A DNA stretch of 64,000 bases from Bacteroidota bacterium (GTDB lineage Bacteria; Bacteroidota; Bacteroidia; NS11-12g; UBA955). This document shows positions 13,761-20,254 of this stretch, one piece after another. Every line of letters starts with the position of its first letter. Position 1 is the first letter of the stretch. The position numbers were made by a program, and so were the translations under genes. Where the stretch lies: contig JAGXTF010000090.1 in assembly GCA_018333525.1 (NCBI GenBank), forward strand, positions 62,001 to 126,000, read 5' to 3'. The notes beneath the pieces are model-generated. The model made no database searches, had not been told where the DNA came from, and saw nothing but the letters and a program-made list of their open reading frames with translations.

Positions 13761-14504
13761 ATGGCCATACAAGCAGCATATATCGGAGTAGAAGAGAAGT
13801 CATACAAGCAGGTAAATGATTTGATAAAAAAACAATTTCGTGAAATTCTGTTGGTTGCGCACATGGACAATCCGGATGAAAACCTGGAGCTCATCTATCA
13901 CCTGAACCTGGATCTGGTAATTATGGATATTGATTTACCAAAAGGGGAAGACCGGGATATTGTCCATTTAATTCCGGAGAAGTATGCAGACAAGACAATT
14001 GTAATCAGCCGCGACCCACTGAAAGCCGTTGCCTGCATGCATAAAGGCATTTTGGATTTTATTGAAAAGCCAATTACCGCAGAACATTTTAAACAAATAC
14101 TCATGCACTACAAGCACCATTTAGAACATGAGCACGCATTGAACAGCATTGTACATTTCGATCGAATTATTGTAAACAGGCATGATAAGGCATATTTGCT
14201 TGAGCTGGAAAACATCCTGTATTTTGAGGCAGACGGTCCATATACCAATATTAAAATAACCGGCGATAAGAAGATTGGCAGCAGCAAACCATTGGGCTAT
14301 TACCGCGATTTATTGGAAACCAAAAAGAACTTTGTAGCAGTGAACAGAAGCACCTTAATCAATATCCAGAATATCCGTGAAATTGTGAAAGAAGAAGGGG
14401 AGGGCACAGTTATACTTAAAGACTCATCCAGGCTGGAAGTTAGCAGGGCAAGTAAAAACCGGCTGATGCAGGTCTTATATGATCTTCAGGACAACAGCCT
14501 TTAA
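13761..14504 (+). CDS. LytTR-family response regulator
   Basis: 247 aa. An N-terminal receiver domain has likely phosphoacceptor D56 (LVIMDIDLP), a switch Ser in VISRDP, and K103 in IEKPIT. A C-terminal LytTR DNA-binding domain covers about residues 140-247, with ILYFEADGPYTNI, FVAVNRSTLINIQNI and VSRASKNRL. No histidine kinase is adjacent, so the cognate kinase must be encoded elsewhere. A strong double terminator follows, so the two small peptides downstream have their own transcript. Target genes are unknown. Confidence 0.92.
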   Translation: MAIQAAYIGVEEKSYKQVNDLIKKQFREILLVAHMDNPDENLELIYHLNLDLVIMDIDLPKGEDRDIVHLIPEKYADKTIVISRDPLKAVACMHKGILDFIEKPITAEHFKQILMHYKHHLEHEHALNSIVHFDRIIVNRHDKAYLLELENILYFEADGPYTNIKITGDKKIGSSKPLGYYRDLLETKKNFVAVNRSTLINIQNIREIVKEEGEGTVILKDSSRLEVSRASKNRLMQVLYDLQDNSL

Positions 14505-14824
14505 AGTGGTTTAATAACATTTCGTCGCTTTCATATAATATACATCCGTTCCATAAGTTTCTTGGGATCGGAGAATTCCAAAGTACCTAGTTTCGATCTC
14601 ACAATGCACAGTAAATAATTAAAGCGTGGATCTACCCCCCACGCTTTAAAAATGGGCGGTTCTGCCGCCCATTTTTTTGGCTTTTACCGGAGAAAAATGG
14701 CAAAAAATGAAATGTATCTTTAAGAATAACAATGTTTTAAGGACTAAATCATTGCAGAATCCGGCTCTGGGCTTGGATATTTACAGTTTATTGTTTAGTT
14801 TTGCTATAATCTATAGTGGCAGAT
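14505..14824. other. Intergenic stretch between LytTR gene and first mini-protein
   Basis: 320 bases. The double-hairpin terminator occupies 14621-14678. The last 60 bases contain a possible promoter (TTG 14791-14793, 18 bases, TATAGTGG 14812-14819). Nothing else is recognised. Confidence 0.5.
14621..14678 (+). terminator. Tandem double-hairpin terminator
   Basis: First stem AAAGCGTGG/CCACGCTTT (14621-14647). Second stem AATGGGCGG/CCGCCCATT (14651-14673), running into seven T. Downstream of the LytTR gene. Confidence 0.85.
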
Positions 14825-14923
14825 ATGGATATTCTTAATAACATCCCAGGTTTCCTTATTGTACTCCCTATGGGCTTTGCGATCGGAATTTTGCTTGTTC
14901 TCACCGTTGGCGAGAAAAAGTAA
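14825..14923 (+). CDS. Mini-protein A, 32-aa single-span membrane peptide
   Basis: ATG at 14825, TAA at 14921-14923. The peptide has a short acidic start (MD), then NNIPGFLIV, a hydrophobic span containing PMGFAIGILLVLTV, and a basic tail GEKK. It is a paralogue of the peptide at 15198-15296: 25 of 32 residues are identical, and many codons differ only at the third base (CCA/CCC, GGT/GGA, TTC/TTT, CTT/CTG, GTA/GTT, CCT/CCA, ACC/ACG). That pattern is the signature of translated sequence. The bases before the ATG (TATAGTGGCAGAT) nearly match those before the second copy. Orientation is probably N-out/C-in by the positive-inside rule. The function is not known; it may be a subunit or regulator of a membrane complex. 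Confidence 0.75.
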   Translation: MDILNNIPGFLIVLPMGFAIGILLVLTVGEKK

Positions 14924-15197
14924 TTCGAATCGTTAAGTCTCTCAGGCATGTGCAATAGAGGGCTAAGGCTCTCGCGGAAAATCTTTTGCAAAAAATTCTT
15001 AACCGGATAACTCCGGTTCTCCATTTATTTTGGTTAAAAAACAAACGCAATTTATTTGCATTTATTTCTGTATTTACTATCCTGAAACCCTTTACTGCAG
15101 GCATTCTTGCGCAAAATAAAAAAATAAAAATTTGCATAAATAATTTGGTATTTTAATTGGATAATATTAGATTTACCAAAATTCTATATTGGCAGAT

Positions 15198-15296
15198 ATG
15201 GACTCATTTAATAACATCCCCGGATTTCTGATCGTTTTTCCAATGGGCTTTGCCTTTGGTATTTTGCTGATTCTCACGGTACGTGAGAAGAAGTAA
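15198..15296 (+). CDS. Mini-protein B, 32-aa single-span membrane peptide
   Basis: ATG at 15198, TAA at 15294-15296, the same length as its paralogue at 14825. It reads MDSF, NNIPGFLIV, then a span with PMGFAFGILLILTV, and ends REKK. Substitutions relative to copy A are mostly synonymous or conservative (V/F, I/F, V/I). The sequence TATATTGGCAGAT precedes the ATG in place of TATAGTGGCAGAT. The 274 bases between the copies hold no other open frame that I recognise. The duplication with separate upstream signals suggests two separately expressed isoforms. Confidence 0.75.
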   Translation: MDSFNNIPGFLIVFPMGFAFGILLILTVREKK

Positions 15297-15331
15297 TATC
15301 TGAATCAGAAACAGTAAGATTCTTGATGTAT

Positions 15332-15368
15332 CAGCATTCCCGGAATGCTGCTGTCTGTTTATTTTAAA
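15332..15368 (+). terminator. Hairpin after mini-protein B
   Basis: CAGCATTCC pairs with GGAATGCTG (15332-15350), followed by T-rich TGTCTGTTTATTTT. The very tight loop means the terminal pairs must open; a probable terminator. Confidence 0.5.
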
Positions 15369-15565
15369 ATTAAAAGTACTTTCCAATTTGACCGGAAAGG
15401 AAGTACCGGATTTTATTATCTATTTTTTCTGAGTTTATAAGCTCGTTTTATCTGATCTGATAAATAAATTCTCTTTCGGACAATTCAAAATATCCAGCGG
15501 CGGAAAGTTTCCTGAATCCATCAATTTATACGCTGGTATTTTTATTAAAATTGGACATAAATATT

Positions 15566-16048
15566 TCAAAAGCTATTAAAAAGTAATTGAATCTGTTCAG
15601 ATGTGATGGGTTTTTCCAGTATCCCGGAAACATGTTTATCCTTTAGAATAAAGGGGAGTTTATGTTGATCAATTACTTCTGTACAAAGATAAATTTGTGA
15701 GTTTGTATTTATCGCTTTTTGGGTTTGTATTTCATAGAAGATCTGAATCAAATCTACACCATGACAATCTAAATCCAACAAAATAAGATACTTGGACATG
15801 GCATTCACCCAGGCATGATTGGTGGTGAAAATTTCAGTGATGTTGTTCTTTACGCGTATATCACAAATTTTGAAATTATCGCGAAAAATTCTTTCTAAAG
15901 CTTTAACTTCATCCTTTTCCGGACCAATCGGATTTGTAATAAATACAATCCCAATATGTGATTTTAATGCAGAGTGAAAAAGTCTCCAATTTAGAAATTG
16001 AGATAAAGACCTGGAATTCTCGTTTGTATGATAAATCCCTCTCGCCAT
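15566..16048 (-). CDS. Receiver-domain-like protein, 160 aa
   Basis: A stand-alone, diverged CheY-like fold. YLILLDLDCHG provides D92/D94 as candidate phosphoacceptor, T123 in IYLCTE is the switch residue, and K146-P147 in ILEKPIT is the conserved Lys-Pro. No output domain is present. The acidic pair usually found near the N-terminus is not evident, so phosphorylation is uncertain. Transcribed away from the amidase-dipeptidase-patatin run across an A+T-rich gap. Could be a phosphorelay shuttle or a degenerate regulator. Confidence 0.65.
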   Translation of the reverse strand: MARGIYHTNENSRSLSQFLNWRLFHSALKSHIGIVFITNPIGPEKDEVKALERIFRDNFKICDIRVKNNITEIFTTNHAWVNAMSKYLILLDLDCHGVDLIQIFYEIQTQKAINTNSQIYLCTEVIDQHKLPFILKDKHVSGILEKPITSEQIQLLFNSF

Positions 16049-16285
16049 GGTGAAGCAAAAATGAATATAGATTTACTACCCTCAGAAGAGGCTACGCAAA
16101 TACCATGCAATTTTTAAGTTCTTAAAATGAAATTTTATCCCATTGTAATACAATGAGTTAAAAAATAAAATATTACATTTAATTTCTAAATCTTGTCATA
16201 TTGAAAATCTCATTTTCATTTTGATTGTTGACAAAATTAATCAATAAATAAAAATTAAAATAACCCTTGAAATTTAAATTTTTAT

Positions 16286-17110
16286 TTGCTAGAATTGTAT
16301 TGCACCAAAGCAAACAATCGTTTAGGAATTGGAGGAATTTCTGAATGTAACAGTTTTAAAATGAGGGCTTCTGACATTTCTTTATATGAAAATAAATTTC
16401 ATCGGTTTGGAATTGATGCCTTAGGAAAGAAATTTATACTTAAAAATTTCGAGGTGATTGTACCCGATATGCCAAATTTGCCGGTGACTCTATGCCGAAG
16501 AGAAAATAAGGATCAAAGTTATTTTGTAAAAAGCATCAGTACCAAAACGAAAATTGTATTGCATTTTACTGCAGGTTACCTTGGAGGGGATATCGCAACG
16601 CTGACCCAACCCGGTAATTTGGTTTCAGTGCCTTTTGTTATCGCGAGATCCGGACATATTTATAATCTTTGGCCGTCTAATTTCTGGTCTTATCATTTGG
16701 GACCCGGTGCTTCAGGAGGTAATACCCTCATGAGCAAAACAAGCATAGCAATTGAAATTTCCAACATAGGTCCACTTATTAAAAAGGGAGATAAGATGGT
16801 GACATCATATAGCACTTTTGATATTTATTGCAATTATTCTGAAAATGAATATTTTGAAAAAATAAATAATTACAGGGGCTTTAGCCATTTCGCGAAATTC
16901 TCACCAGAGCAATATTTGGCACTCCGATCTTTATTAAAATACCTCACCTGGAAATATAAAATTCCTTATACAATCCTTCCTAAAGAAAAGCGGTATGATG
17001 TTTTTACAGATAGTGAAGCTCTGGAATTCACGGGTATTTGCACCCATGTAAACTTTCGGAGCGACAAATATGATATCGGTCCTGCATTCGACTGGAATAA
17101 AATACAATAA
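16286..17110 (+). CDS. N-acetylmuramoyl-L-alanine amidase-like protein (Amidase_2)
   Basis: Zinc amidase fold of the AmpD/PGRP type. Expected ligands are present: H93 (IVLHFTAG), H254 (CTHVNFR) and D263, with catalytic-type K261 in the KYDIGPAFDW motif. Supporting motifs are SYHLGPGA (H137) and IAIEISN. The family cleaves the amide between N-acetylmuramic acid and L-alanine of peptidoglycan. No signal peptide is visible. The first codon is TTG (16286); an ATG at 16361 (MRASDISL) is an alternative that keeps the domain whole. The gene ends nine bases before the M19-like gene, so they are surely co-transcribed. Upstream DNA is markedly A+T rich. Confidence 0.82.
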   Translation: MLELYCTKANNRLGIGGISECNSFKMRASDISLYENKFHRFGIDALGKKFILKNFEVIVPDMPNLPVTLCRRENKDQSYFVKSISTKTKIVLHFTAGYLGGDIATLTQPGNLVSVPFVIARSGHIYNLWPSNFWSYHLGPGASGGNTLMSKTSIAIEISNIGPLIKKGDKMVTSYSTFDIYCNYSENEYFEKINNYRGFSHFAKFSPEQYLALRSLLKYLTWKYKIPYTILPKEKRYDVFTDSEALEFTGICTHVNFRSDKYDIGPAFDWNKIQ

Positions 17111-17119
17111 AATTCCGGT

Positions 17120-18562
17120 ATGCCCGTCTCTTCTCCTATTACAGACATTCACGCACATCCAACATTAAAGCCTTTCGGGAATACCTCTTATTCCAATTTA
17201 AATGCAAAACTCTACGGTGACCCGGCATGCATATGGACGAAAGACAGAATCAGTGAAACAGATAAGTTTCTGGAAAGCATTGCTGGTTTTTCGAGGTATA
17301 GGCAAAGTGATTTCTCTTCCCTTGTGAATGGTCAGGTAAAAACTATTATTCCGGCATTATATCCTATTGAACGTGGATTTTTTTTGTTACCGGAGAGAAT
17401 CCTCTTGAAAGAATTAACTGAAACATATCTGGGTCAATTTGCCAGCATGCTCAGTAAGGCAAAGATTCGGCATATCAGAAGCGATAAATACAATTATTAT
17501 GAAGATCTTATCCATGAATTTGAATTCCTGGAAAGCCTTAATGAAAGGGCTGCTAATGGATGCAGTTTTTCATATAAAATAGTCGAAAATCCGGAAGATT
17601 TATATTTAAACAAAGACTTTAATATTTATGTAATTCCATCCATTGAAGGGGGGCATGCGCTGTGCAATGGAAATAATGTTTTGCTTTCAGAAAATTGGTT
17701 TGGAGTTGAAGCGCGTATACAGCATATAAAAAACCTGATATCCAGACCCATTTTTATCACCCTGGCGCATCACTTTTTTAATGGATTGTGCACGCATGCT
17801 CGCAGTCTTACCGGGGTAGCTTCACGGTTTCTCGATCAGAGTTATGGAATGAGAGATTACCGTATACAAAGTTCAGATGCCATAGTTCCAATAACAACAA
17901 CGGGGAAAAGAGTAATTCGAGAATTGCTTTCCAATTCAAATGGCAAAAGAATTCTGATAGATGTAAAACATATGTCAAAAGAAGCTCGTATGGAATATTA
18001 CCAAATGATATTATTGGAATATCCGGATACAACAATACCGGTAATATGCAGTCATGGAGCACTTACGGATTTTTATCCGCATCAGATCAACATGGAAAAG
18101 CAATTGGATATTTTGAAGATTTACGAAACAAATGGACTTTTTGGAATTGAATTGGATCAACGAATTCTTGGATTAAAACAACATCGTTTTATTGAAAAAT
18201 ATTTGCGAATGGCCAGGCGAAAATTTGCTTCTTTTGAAAAAAGGTGTGCAACGGATGCTTACTTAGTTTGGCGACAGATTATTACTACCGCGGAGTTTGC
18301 CTATTCAAACGGATTCCGCGATGATCCATGGAAATGTATTTGTCTTGGGAGTGATTACGATGGTATTATTGATCCACCCGATCAATTCAGAACGGCCGAA
18401 AGGCTTCCTCTTCTCTATGAATTCCTGATTCGTCATTTGGATCAATATTGGAAGTCTGGCCATTGCATGGTTCCCAAAAACCACAATGGTTGGAAAAAAG
18501 AAGATGTTATCTACAGGATTATGCATAAAAATGCACTGGATTTTATAGATAAGAATTATTGA
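17120..18562 (+). CDS. Divergent membrane-dipeptidase-like (M19) amidohydrolase
   Basis: 480 aa, longer than typical M19 enzymes (about 330-400). Recognisable landmarks: DIHAHP (H11/H13) as first metal site, SIEGGHAL (E176 bridging), FITLAHHFFN (H217/H218), LIDVKHMS (H284), PVICSHGA (H312) and LGSDYDG (D412). These match the order of M19 motifs (HxD, EGGH, LTLTH, DLSH, FSHS, G.DFDG). Family members hydrolyse dipeptides with zinc. Here the first site is HxH, not HxD, and the N-terminal 170 residues contain insertions. No signal peptide is seen. It sits between an amidase and a patatin, consistent with envelope or murein peptide breakdown, but the substrate is inference. Confidence 0.72.
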   Translation: MPVSSPITDIHAHPTLKPFGNTSYSNLNAKLYGDPACIWTKDRISETDKFLESIAGFSRYRQSDFSSLVNGQVKTIIPALYPIERGFFLLPERILLKELTETYLGQFASMLSKAKIRHIRSDKYNYYEDLIHEFEFLESLNERAANGCSFSYKIVENPEDLYLNKDFNIYVIPSIEGGHALCNGNNVLLSENWFGVEARIQHIKNLISRPIFITLAHHFFNGLCTHARSLTGVASRFLDQSYGMRDYRIQSSDAIVPITTTGKRVIRELLSNSNGKRILIDVKHMSKEARMEYYQMILLEYPDTTIPVICSHGALTDFYPHQINMEKQLDILKIYETNGLFGIELDQRILGLKQHRFIEKYLRMARRKFASFEKRCATDAYLVWRQIITTAEFAYSNGFRDDPWKCICLGSDYDGIIDPPDQFRTAERLPLLYEFLIRHLDQYWKSGHCMVPKNHNGWKKEDVIYRIMHKNALDFIDKNY

Positions 18563-18598
18563 ATTTGTATGAAAGTCTTAAATAAAATATACCCGTAA

Positions 18599-20254
18599 TT
18601 GAAAGACAATACTATTTATATTGGCCTTTGCCTTGCAGGTGCTGTGTCCGCAGGAGCGTACACGGCAGGAGTAATTGACTTTTTATTGGAGACTTTGGAT
18701 GAATGGGAAATACAAAAAGAGAAAAACGATCCGGAAGTTCCTGCACACCAGATCAAGATTGCTGTTATCGGTGGGGCTTCCGCAGGTGGAATGACTGGAA
18801 TTCTTTTATCAGTAAAAAAAGATCAGGCCTTTAAACCGGTTAGGATGGCACCCTCCAATATCCATAGCAGTATTCCGGGCAATCCATTCTACAATGCCTG
18901 GGTAGATCTTACAGAAAATGATCTATGGCCCTTGTTACTGGCATGTAATGATTTGAAAGGAGATGCGCCTATTTATAGTATTCTCAATTCTTCTTTTATA
19001 GATAAGATGGTGAATGCTTCGTTGAGATCGATGCCACTGGAGAAAAAAGCTCGACCCTATTTTTCTGAACCATTAAAAACATTTGTAACGCTATGCAATC
19101 TGGAAGGTTTCAGATACAATATATCCATGAACGCCAATGACCCGGAAAGGTATAAATATGTGATGGGAAAACATGCAGATCTGGCATGTTTTCATATTTC
19201 TGAAAACAAAGAATATCTGGATGATGGATGGATACCGGTTAATCCTGAAACGGGGTTCAATACAGATATTATGGAGCAGGCTGCCAGAGCAACCGGGGCT
19301 TTTCCACTTGTACTTAAAGCGCGGTTTGTGAGCAGACCGGGCAAAGTAATCAACGACCTGCAATGGAACAGGGATATTACCAAACATTTTCCGGTAAGTG
19401 ATGAAATTTATGAAGCATTATGTGTAGATGGTGGAATAATAAATAATGAACCATTTGAATATGTGCGACAATTGCTGAACCAGATTACCGGGGAATCTGT
19501 GGATGTTGGTGATTACAATTCCTTTGATACATTCAAAAGCACAGTTTTATTGGTAGATCCGTTTCCCAGTGAACCTGAATTATTTAATTGCACCGAAAGA
19601 TGGAATTATGTAGCTGCAAATACCCTACAGGCAATGCTGGATCAAATGAGGATGAAGCCATTTGAAATGATGAAGCCGTTTAACCAGAATTTATCCGGAC
19701 AGTTTATGATTTCGCCAATGAAGCAATTGGAGGTGGATGGTATCCCGTCGCAGCGATGCGGTTCTTCCGCAATAGCCTGCGGCGGTATTTGGGGATTTGC
19801 AGGTTTCTTTTCTAAGGAATTTCGCGTTCACGATTATTTTTTAGGTCGGGCAAATTGTGAAAAATTTTTACGGGAAAAATTTACGGTACCGCTTCATTCT
19901 TCCAATCCAATCATAAAATTCGGCTATAAAAAAGTGAAGAATAAGCAAAAATATCTATCGGCGAACGGTGGACTTCAAATAATTCCCGTATTCCGGGAAT
20001 CCGCCTCCAATTCATATATGCCTTCCTTTTACAATGGAGAACAATGGCCCACTATTGCTGAAAAAGACATTTACAAAATGCGTCCATTGATGAAAAAAAG
20101 AATAGAAGTTATTTTAAGAAAGTTGGGTGATTATTCTACTCAGGAAAAGATTTTGTTATGGATTGGATCTAAAGTGCTGCTGAGCGGAAAAATATCTGAT
20201 ATAGTTATTTCTCAGATTATTCGCGGATTAAAATCGCATCAACTTATTAAATAA
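18599..20254 (+). CDS. Patatin-like phospholipase
   Basis: 551 aa. The catalytic dyad is visible: S61 in GGASAGG (GxSxG) and D277 in VDGG. The oxyanion-type N-terminal motif is CLAGAVSAGAYTAGV. Patatins release fatty acids from phospholipids or other lipid esters. A long C-terminal region (after about residue 330) has no domain I can name. The TTG start at 18599 gives MKDNTIYIGLCLAG, directly preceding the first strand. It lies 36 bases after the M19-like gene and is probably the last gene of the operon. It has no signal peptide, so action from the cytoplasm on the inner membrane is possible. Confidence 0.88.
   Translation: MKDNTIYIGLCLAGAVSAGAYTAGVIDFLLETLDEWEIQKEKNDPEVPAHQIKIAVIGGASAGGMTGILLSVKKDQAFKPVRMAPSNIHSSIPGNPFYNAWVDLTENDLWPLLLACNDLKGDAPIYSILNSSFIDKMVNASLRSMPLEKKARPYFSEPLKTFVTLCNLEGFRYNISMNANDPERYKYVMGKHADLACFHISENKEYLDDGWIPVNPETGFNTDIMEQAARATGAFPLVLKARFVSRPGKVINDLQWNRDITKHFPVSDEIYEALCVDGGIINNEPFEYVRQLLNQITGESVDVGDYNSFDTFKSTVLLVDPFPSEPELFNCTERWNYVAANTLQAMLDQMRMKPFEMMKPFNQNLSGQFMISPMKQLEVDGIPSQRCGSSAIACGGIWGFAGFFSKEFRVHDYFLGRANCEKFLREKFTVPLHSSNPIIKFGYKKVKNKQKYLSANGGLQIIPVFRESASNSYMPSFYNGEQWPTIAEKDIYKMRPLMKKRIEVILRKLGDYSTQEKILLWIGSKVLLSGKISDIVISQIIRGLKSHQLIK

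Follow-up and report, generated by a model that had tools for sequence, protein, structure and literature searches.

Single-span accessory proteins of the AcrZ, CydX and KdpF type have about 30–50 residues, one hydrophobic helix and no catalytic part. They are often encoded in the operon of their partner, as are CydX and KdpF, AcrZ being an exception. Strict conservation is not diagnostic of the class, since CydX tolerates single alanine changes (excerpt of PMC6005532). A second group of small membrane proteins comprises the Fst/Ldr and Zor type I toxins. In the available part of PMC8309996, (A)PxxxG is given as the Fst/Ldr core motif, and the search that led to ZorO is said to have included tandem duplication of small hydrophobic proteins in its parameters. 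According to the available part of PMC12390103, known features are a poor guide to type I systems, which are reported from no groups other than Proteobacteria, Firmicutes, Tenericutes and, newly, a cyanobacterium. Small coding genes below the usual annotation cut-offs have also been grouped into the GMSC smORF families (excerpt of PMC11364881).

The window studied here is a stretch of 64,000 nucleotides on a 146-kb contig of a 3.7-Mb Bacteroidota assembly (97.8% complete, 3.8% contamination). It contains two frames that almost certainly, judged from their sequences, encode near-identical 32-residue membrane peptides kept by selection (Table 1). In size, and in having a single hydrophobic helix and no catalytic part, they resemble proteins of the AcrZ/CydX/KdpF type. 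They differ from these in forming a tandem pair, in giving no Pfam or NCBIfam match above cut-off and in that no partner gene was recognised in the transcript. With the Fst/Ldr and Zor toxins they share size, a hydrophobic helix with a proline, a cationic C terminus and tandem copies, whereas the (A)PxxxG motif, a well-supported antisense promoter and a family match are lacking and the predicted leader is very short. Like members of the GMSC families, they are small genes of the kind that annotation usually passes over.

Table 1. Features of the micropeptide locus and its flanks (positions in the window)
Feature	Position	Strand	Details
LytTR response regulator	13761..14504	+	Pfam match LytTR/Response_reg
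Terminator-like hairpin 3' of LytTR gene	14648-14676		13 pairs
Predicted Bacteroidota-type promoter, copy 1	14773..14803	+	TTG (14773-14775), N20, TAGTTTTG (14796-14803), exact TAnnTTTG
Predicted leader, copy 1	14808..14824	+	17 nt, conserved with copy 2; transcription start predicted near 14808
Micropeptide gene copy 1	14825-14923	+	32 aa, one predicted membrane helix; product MDILNNIPGFLIVLPMGFAIGILLVLTVGEKK
Hairpin 3' of copy 1	15001..15018	+	T run on minus strand; weak as plus-strand terminator
Predicted promoter, copy 2	15145..15175	+	TTG (15145-15147), N20, TAGATTTA (15168-15175), one mismatch
Predicted leader, copy 2	15180..15197	+	18 nt; transcription start predicted near 15180
Micropeptide gene copy 2	15198-15296	+	32 aa, one predicted membrane helix; product MDSFNNIPGFLIVFPMGFAFGILLILTVREKK
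Terminator-like hairpin 3' of copy 2	15332..15350	+	CAGCATTCCCGGAATGCTG, then T-rich
160-aa frame	15566..16048	-	convergent to copy 2; no Pfam match at E 0.001
Amidase_2, M19 dipeptidase and patatin-like genes	16286-20254	one direction	Pfam

A sequence-only reading had described the two frames as equally long paralogues with about 25 of 32 residues in common, their base differences mostly conservative or at third codon positions, and had taken this as strong evidence of translation under purifying selection. Both frames are present, with ATG starts and TAA stops. Their close paralogy stands, the exact figure being 26 of 32 residues without gaps. Between the copies, 18 of the 25 base differences fall in the third codon position (6/1/18, copy 1 against copy 2; binomial P 8.8e-5 for at least 18 of 25). 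The dN/dS-type check suggested at the time was done by the NG86 method and gave a pS of 0.805 against a pN of 0.097: 17.8 of 22.2 synonymous sites differ, which is saturation, and 7.2 of 73.8 non-synonymous ones. In a neutral simulation with 25 changes (200,000 runs), mean identity was 16.5 residues (s.d. 1.8, maximum 24), and no run reached 25 without a stop. The pS/pN contrast and the simulation thus both support translation under purifying selection. At the DNA level, the repeat spanning the copies is 126 nt long, with 75% identity and a spacing of 373. On the 3' side the similarity does not go beyond the stop codon, and on the 5' side it fades some 17 nt ahead of the ATG; in-frame GTG or TTG codons 9 nt upstream of the ATGs would allow 35-residue versions. 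The silent sites are randomised, which makes the duplication old, and both frames behave as old, strongly constrained coding copies.

The best antisense frame has 24 of 31 identical residues, with pS 0.641 and pN 0.158. This weaker conservation is expected as a shadow of the sense frame, because the wobble positions face each other, and antisense coding was dropped on account of its weaker pS/pN contrast. The remaining four frames have 13–14 identical residues of 31–32. Codon usage gives no help in singling out the sense frames. At 6.5 and 6.1 bits, they are equalled by one antisense frame (6.6 and 6.1), which has a stop inside copy 2, and synonymous choice is slightly under the genome average in both sense frames (-0.07 and -0.09).

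As a baseline, 446 kb of the same genome were sampled, giving 526 intergenic ORFs of 20–60 codons and 1472 neighbouring same-strand pairs of small ORFs. Two of the 1472 pairs exceed the peptide pair in protein similarity. Their DNA is 97.7% and 93.9% identical, the mere 3 and 4 differences including no more than one in third position. The two pairs that follow in rank, with differences of 9/11/7 and 3/6/6, are without a third-position excess like that of the peptide pair. One locus elsewhere in the genome (L186) carries intergenic tandem near-identical repeats about 200 bp apart (G000:C118:160334-160992), with two small-frame pairs 97.7% and 93.9% alike in DNA, and further on (G000:C118:171521-171993) tandem small frames with 84% DNA identity over 58 codons and differences of 9/11/7.

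The upstream bases that the copies had been said to share are real: TATAnTGGCAGATATGGA, with up to three mismatches allowed, is found at only these two places in the window, exact at both, and at least two such loose matches arose in 3 of 100 shuffles. The shorter TATAnTGGCAGATATG has two exact and 17 looser (1–2 mismatches) matches in the 3.7-Mb assembly. The promoters and transcription units given in Table 1 are predictions by consensus matching. Both promoter candidates have the same register, TTG-N20-TAGnTTTn, 29 and 30 nt before the ATG. The site of copy 1 has the best matrix score in 14400-15700 (12.7; matrix learnt from this genome). The box of copy 2 scores 6.6, and an alternative box, TATATTGG at 15185-15192, scores 6.7. 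A TTG-N20 box with up to one mismatch occurs in the window at 1.7e-4 per position, or about 0.7% per 40-nt stretch. TAnnTTTG is enriched just upstream of this genome's genes, with 52 sites in 145 upstream regions versus 12 in the reversed control. In these 145 regions (L178–L197 and the window), 16 exact boxes end 3–8 nt before start codons, suggesting that a notable share of the mRNAs in this genome is leaderless or nearly so.

Two other identities were considered for the shared upstream bases and dropped. A -7 box of a leaderless or nearly leaderless mRNA is disfavoured for copy 1, where the upper, exact box scores 12.7 versus 1.4; for copy 2 the matrix scores tie (6.6 versus 6.7) and only the shared TTG-N20 spacing favours the upper box. 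Compared by inspection with the sigma-54 consensus, the shared bases offer TGGCA without the second element. In Flavobacterium psychrophilum, transcription is reported to start 5 nt past the box, with a median 5' leader of 24 nt (excerpt of PMC9723704), and the predicted starts were accordingly set 5 nt after the -7 box. The resulting leaders roughly coincide with the stretch conserved between the copies. The LytTR gene is probably a separate transcript, as a terminator-like hairpin follows it, and, given the predicted promoters and hairpins, each peptide gene seems to form a small transcription unit by itself.

A six-pair stem of TCTATA with TATGGA can form across the start codon of either copy (-3 to -6 kcal/mol). 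The predicted accessibility of the AUG is lower than in 97% of 176 genes for copy 2 and lower than in 74% for copy 1. Folding of both regions is no better than that of shuffles (z +1.06 and +0.61). An RNA switch was rejected, because an equally good six-pair stem over the start codon was found in 27 of the 176 genes and Rfam gave no match at gathering score in the peptide region; a leader hairpin over the start codon is thus possible, but unproven. In F. johnsoniae, A at -3 and -6 favours initiation (excerpt of PMC6847099). Both copies have G at both positions, which suggests modest translation at best.

The single membrane span seen by the sequence-only reading is supported by structure and hydropathy predictions. 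The AlphaFold2 model consists of one helix over residues 2–31 (mean pLDDT 88, pTM 0.44), and both peptides are predicted to have one membrane helix and no other domain. The Kyte-Doolittle maxima over 19 residues are 2.7 and 2.6, and a mean of at least 2.4 is reached by only four of the 526 intergenic small ORFs, both peptides included. The hydrophobic core extends from F10 to V28. NNIPGF before the core, P15 and G17xxxG21 are invariant in both peptides, the latter being a small-xxx-small pattern typical of helix packing. Variation is found at positions 3, 4, 14, 20, 25 and 29. Within residues 10–28 only 14, 20 and 25 vary, all hydrophobic, and this restriction is a hint that the helix meets protein and not just lipid. 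By the positive-inside rule, the EKK end suggests a cytoplasmic C terminus, and the N terminus would then lie outside.

A lack of homologues with a conserved frame in related genomes had been named as what would refute the sequence-only reading. No convincing homologue was found. This absence does not refute coding, because the two paralogues supply the conservation evidence. The genomes searched include no second member of the source genome's genus. Among relatives, 22 of 97 genomes matched at E <= 10 (best non-self E 0.023), and a profile search of the family matched 41 of 70 at the same limit (best non-self 0.0013), no other genome convincingly. Within the order, the single-sequence search at 0.01 gave 1 of 108 genomes and the profile search at 0.01 gave 5 of 108; of the four added by the profile, three are long frames and one is a stretch lying opposite a frame of 359 codons. 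The class search returned 1 of 395 at both 0.005 and 0.01, and the phylum search at 0.001 returned 2 of 395. The second of these, in G751 (L198, E 8.1e-4), is the strongest stray match. It is a 20-codon fragment with 12 of 18 residues as in copy 1, including P-x-GFAIG, and has no ATG before the matching part. Searches of seven further genomes from that genus gave nothing comparable, only other matches at E 0.23–0.98 in three of them, and we take the match to be a chance one, without proof. Profile matches in genus g13 (E 0.001–0.008) lie inside frames of 493–554 codons and belong to another protein. Inspection covered 24 of the 69 non-self loci from the relatives, family, polA-nearest and phylum searches, L199–L202 from the search of the genus of G751 not being among them: 21 of the weak matches lie inside or across longer open frames and three (L021, L166, L198) outside them.

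No convincing homologue came from the 10 genomes nearest by polA or from a PDB search with copy 1. Searches of plasmids (copy 1) and of phage records (copy 2) gave no match, and neither peptide matched Pfam, NCBIfam or PADLOC above cut-off. Degenerate-pattern scans returned 46 stretches from genome contigs, none a relative at E 1e-3, and 122 from viral contigs, again with no relative; these scans need near-exact words of 7–8 residues and so would miss many relatives at 70–80% identity. Literature text searches with the core strings PMGFA and NNIPGF gave only irrelevant matches (mass-spectrum software, crustacean chitin), and among the listed matches on Bacteroidota small membrane or type I toxin peptides none described this pair in the text available. 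There is no third copy in the source genome, which is to date the sole one known to carry this orphan family. An old duplication with neither gene seen in the sampled sister genera leaves a long unsampled lineage, loss in the relatives, or transfer of both copies. The GC content is 30–35% in 1-kb windows across 14500-17000 versus 39.6% in the sampled genome, and such AT-rich surroundings fit transfer or simply long spacers.

The pair had been placed between a LytTR regulator and a hydrolase operon. Pfam shows this to be correct (LytTR/Response_reg; Amidase_2; Peptidase_M19; Patatin), and the full order is polA (minus), LytTR regulator, pair, reverse 160-aa frame, Amidase_2, Peptidase_M19 and Patatin, the 160-aa frame sitting between the pair and the hydrolase genes. 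PHROG and PADLOC likewise give this frame no match at E 0.001, and inspection by eye suggests a receiver-like domain (LLDLD, LEKP). The Amidase_2 gene (16286-17110) also matches the phage lysis family PHROG 1794 ('lysis; amidase'). No functional link between the neighbours and the pair was found, one LytTR half-site at ~14783 being without a partner repeat, and no partner gene was recognised in the neighbourhood. The adjoining polA is 72% identical to that of a 'Flavobacteriales bacterium' MAG of the same family (G007). In L083, the nearest relative by polA (72% identical), the 8 kb on each side of that gene contain no LytTR gene and no peptide gene. Across 80 polA loci no peptide match is better than E 0.08, and at seven LytTR paralogue loci (L057–L063) no frame agrees at more than 9 of 32 positions.

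Several readings of the pair can be weighed against these data. Chance frames or an untranslated non-coding repeat would agree with the confinement to one genome, with the neutral codon usage and with the resemblance of this genome's other tandem small-ORF pairs to plain DNA repeats. The third-position bias, the pS/pN contrast, the simulation, the end of similarity at the stop codon and the matching places of the promoter candidates argue against it so clearly that we regard it as next to impossible. The suggestion of 'holin-like' peptides, that is, a phage-type holin or lysis peptides working with the Amidase_2 gene, has no support beyond that gene, 1 kb away, and its PHROG lysis match. Membership of a phage lysis family or cassette is not supported: neither peptide matches a PHROG at E up to 10, copy 2 has no match in phage records and no relative was confirmed in viral contigs. 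The M19 dipeptidase and patatin-like protein after the amidase are without PHROG matches at E 0.001. Furthermore, the reverse-strand frame separates the amidase from the pair and each peptide seemingly has its own promoter, so that we consider a lysis role very improbable. LytTR regulators are often partners of peptide signals, and one adjoins the pair, which raises the prospect of exported signal or bacteriocin-like peptides sensed through it. Against this, no leader or cleavage motif was seen by inspection in the 32 residues, terminator-like hairpins lie between regulator and pair, and none of the six neighbours scanned belongs to a processing or export family. The region 14500-15570 holds one match to the LytTR half-site pattern and no second repeat, at a background of 0.61 per kb. 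Both the holin and the signal readings have little support, the latter being improbable to a slightly lesser degree.

The chief rival to an accessory role is a type I-like toxin locus, in which tandem small hydrophobic toxins would have their translation held by antisense RNA and/or a start-codon hairpin. The pair has the type I feature of a small hydrophobic peptide, often tandemly duplicated. Its layout fits the ZorO search parameters, and the 32 residues, single span, cationic C terminus and helix proline resemble such toxins (PMC8309996, available part). Both leaders can pair over the start codon, with the AUG of copy 2 among the least accessible, and the difficulty of finding such systems by known features (PMC12390103, available part) also speaks for this reading. 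On the minus strand, a terminator-like hairpin is located at 15018-15001, and a box with one mismatch, TACTTTTA at 15372-15365, lies downstream of copy 2 and points at it; its score of 8.4 exceeds those of copy 2's own boxes (6.7 and 6.6). This box is without TTG 18–21 nt upstream, however, and no minus-strand box in 14500-15570 satisfies what both plus-strand promoters do (an exact box, or one mismatch with TTG 18–21 nt upstream). In place of (A)PxxxG both copies have P15-M-G-F-A19, and among curated family models only PF08040 responded, for copy 1, at E 0.097 and below its cut-off; Pfam, NCBIfam and PADLOC thus gave no family match above cut-off. The predicted leader of 17–18 nt is not long and structured, the start-codon stem is common among the 176 genes, copy 1 is only moderately inaccessible and folding is like that of shuffles. 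The whole sequence is constrained here, in contrast to the studied toxins, which depend critically on few residues (PMC8309996, available part). We consider the toxin reading unlikely, but a serious competitor. Slightly less likely still is a bolder pair of alternatives: Bacteroidota type I-like toxins with a new motif, PxGFxxG, and a start-codon 5' hairpin, or a lineage-specific membrane device that needs both peptides.

The 'small regulators or subunits' of the sequence-only reading remain, we infer, the most likely function. Accessory or regulatory peptides with a single span, packing against each other or a partner in the membrane, are a quite plausible reading, to which we give somewhat less than an even chance. 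An old tandem duplication would have produced two real, separately transcribed micropeptide genes, each making its peptide from a short mRNA with the predicted leader. Each peptide would form one membrane helix with a core at about 10–28, the N terminus outside and the EKK end in the cytoplasm, and would act as a non-catalytic accessory or regulatory partner of a larger membrane protein, or as half of a hetero-pair. The face with the invariant proline and G17xxxG21 may be the packing surface, in the manner of small membrane proteins like AcrZ, CydX or KdpF, the two copies being alternative or paired versions, and the membrane partner is seemingly not encoded in the same transcript. Counting against an accessory role are the lack of a linked partner gene and the promoter of copy 2, which is one mismatch off and no better than the alternative box. 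With no convincing homologue, conservation is that of two sequences from one genome, which cannot separate a helix-packing constraint from other causes. What probability remains goes to functions outside the readings listed here.

The locus is a clean case: an internal tandem pair is by itself an argument that genes of fewer than 50 codons, which size cut-offs miss, are translated. It also poses a puzzle, as the copies are old enough for randomised silent sites, yet neither is found in any sampled sister genus. If the toxin locus were true, it would be new for Bacteroidota, given that the available part of PMC12390103 holds no type I system from that phylum, and type I systems would be extended to it. 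If the peptides are accessory subunits, a membrane complex would gain a newly named regulator once their partner is found.
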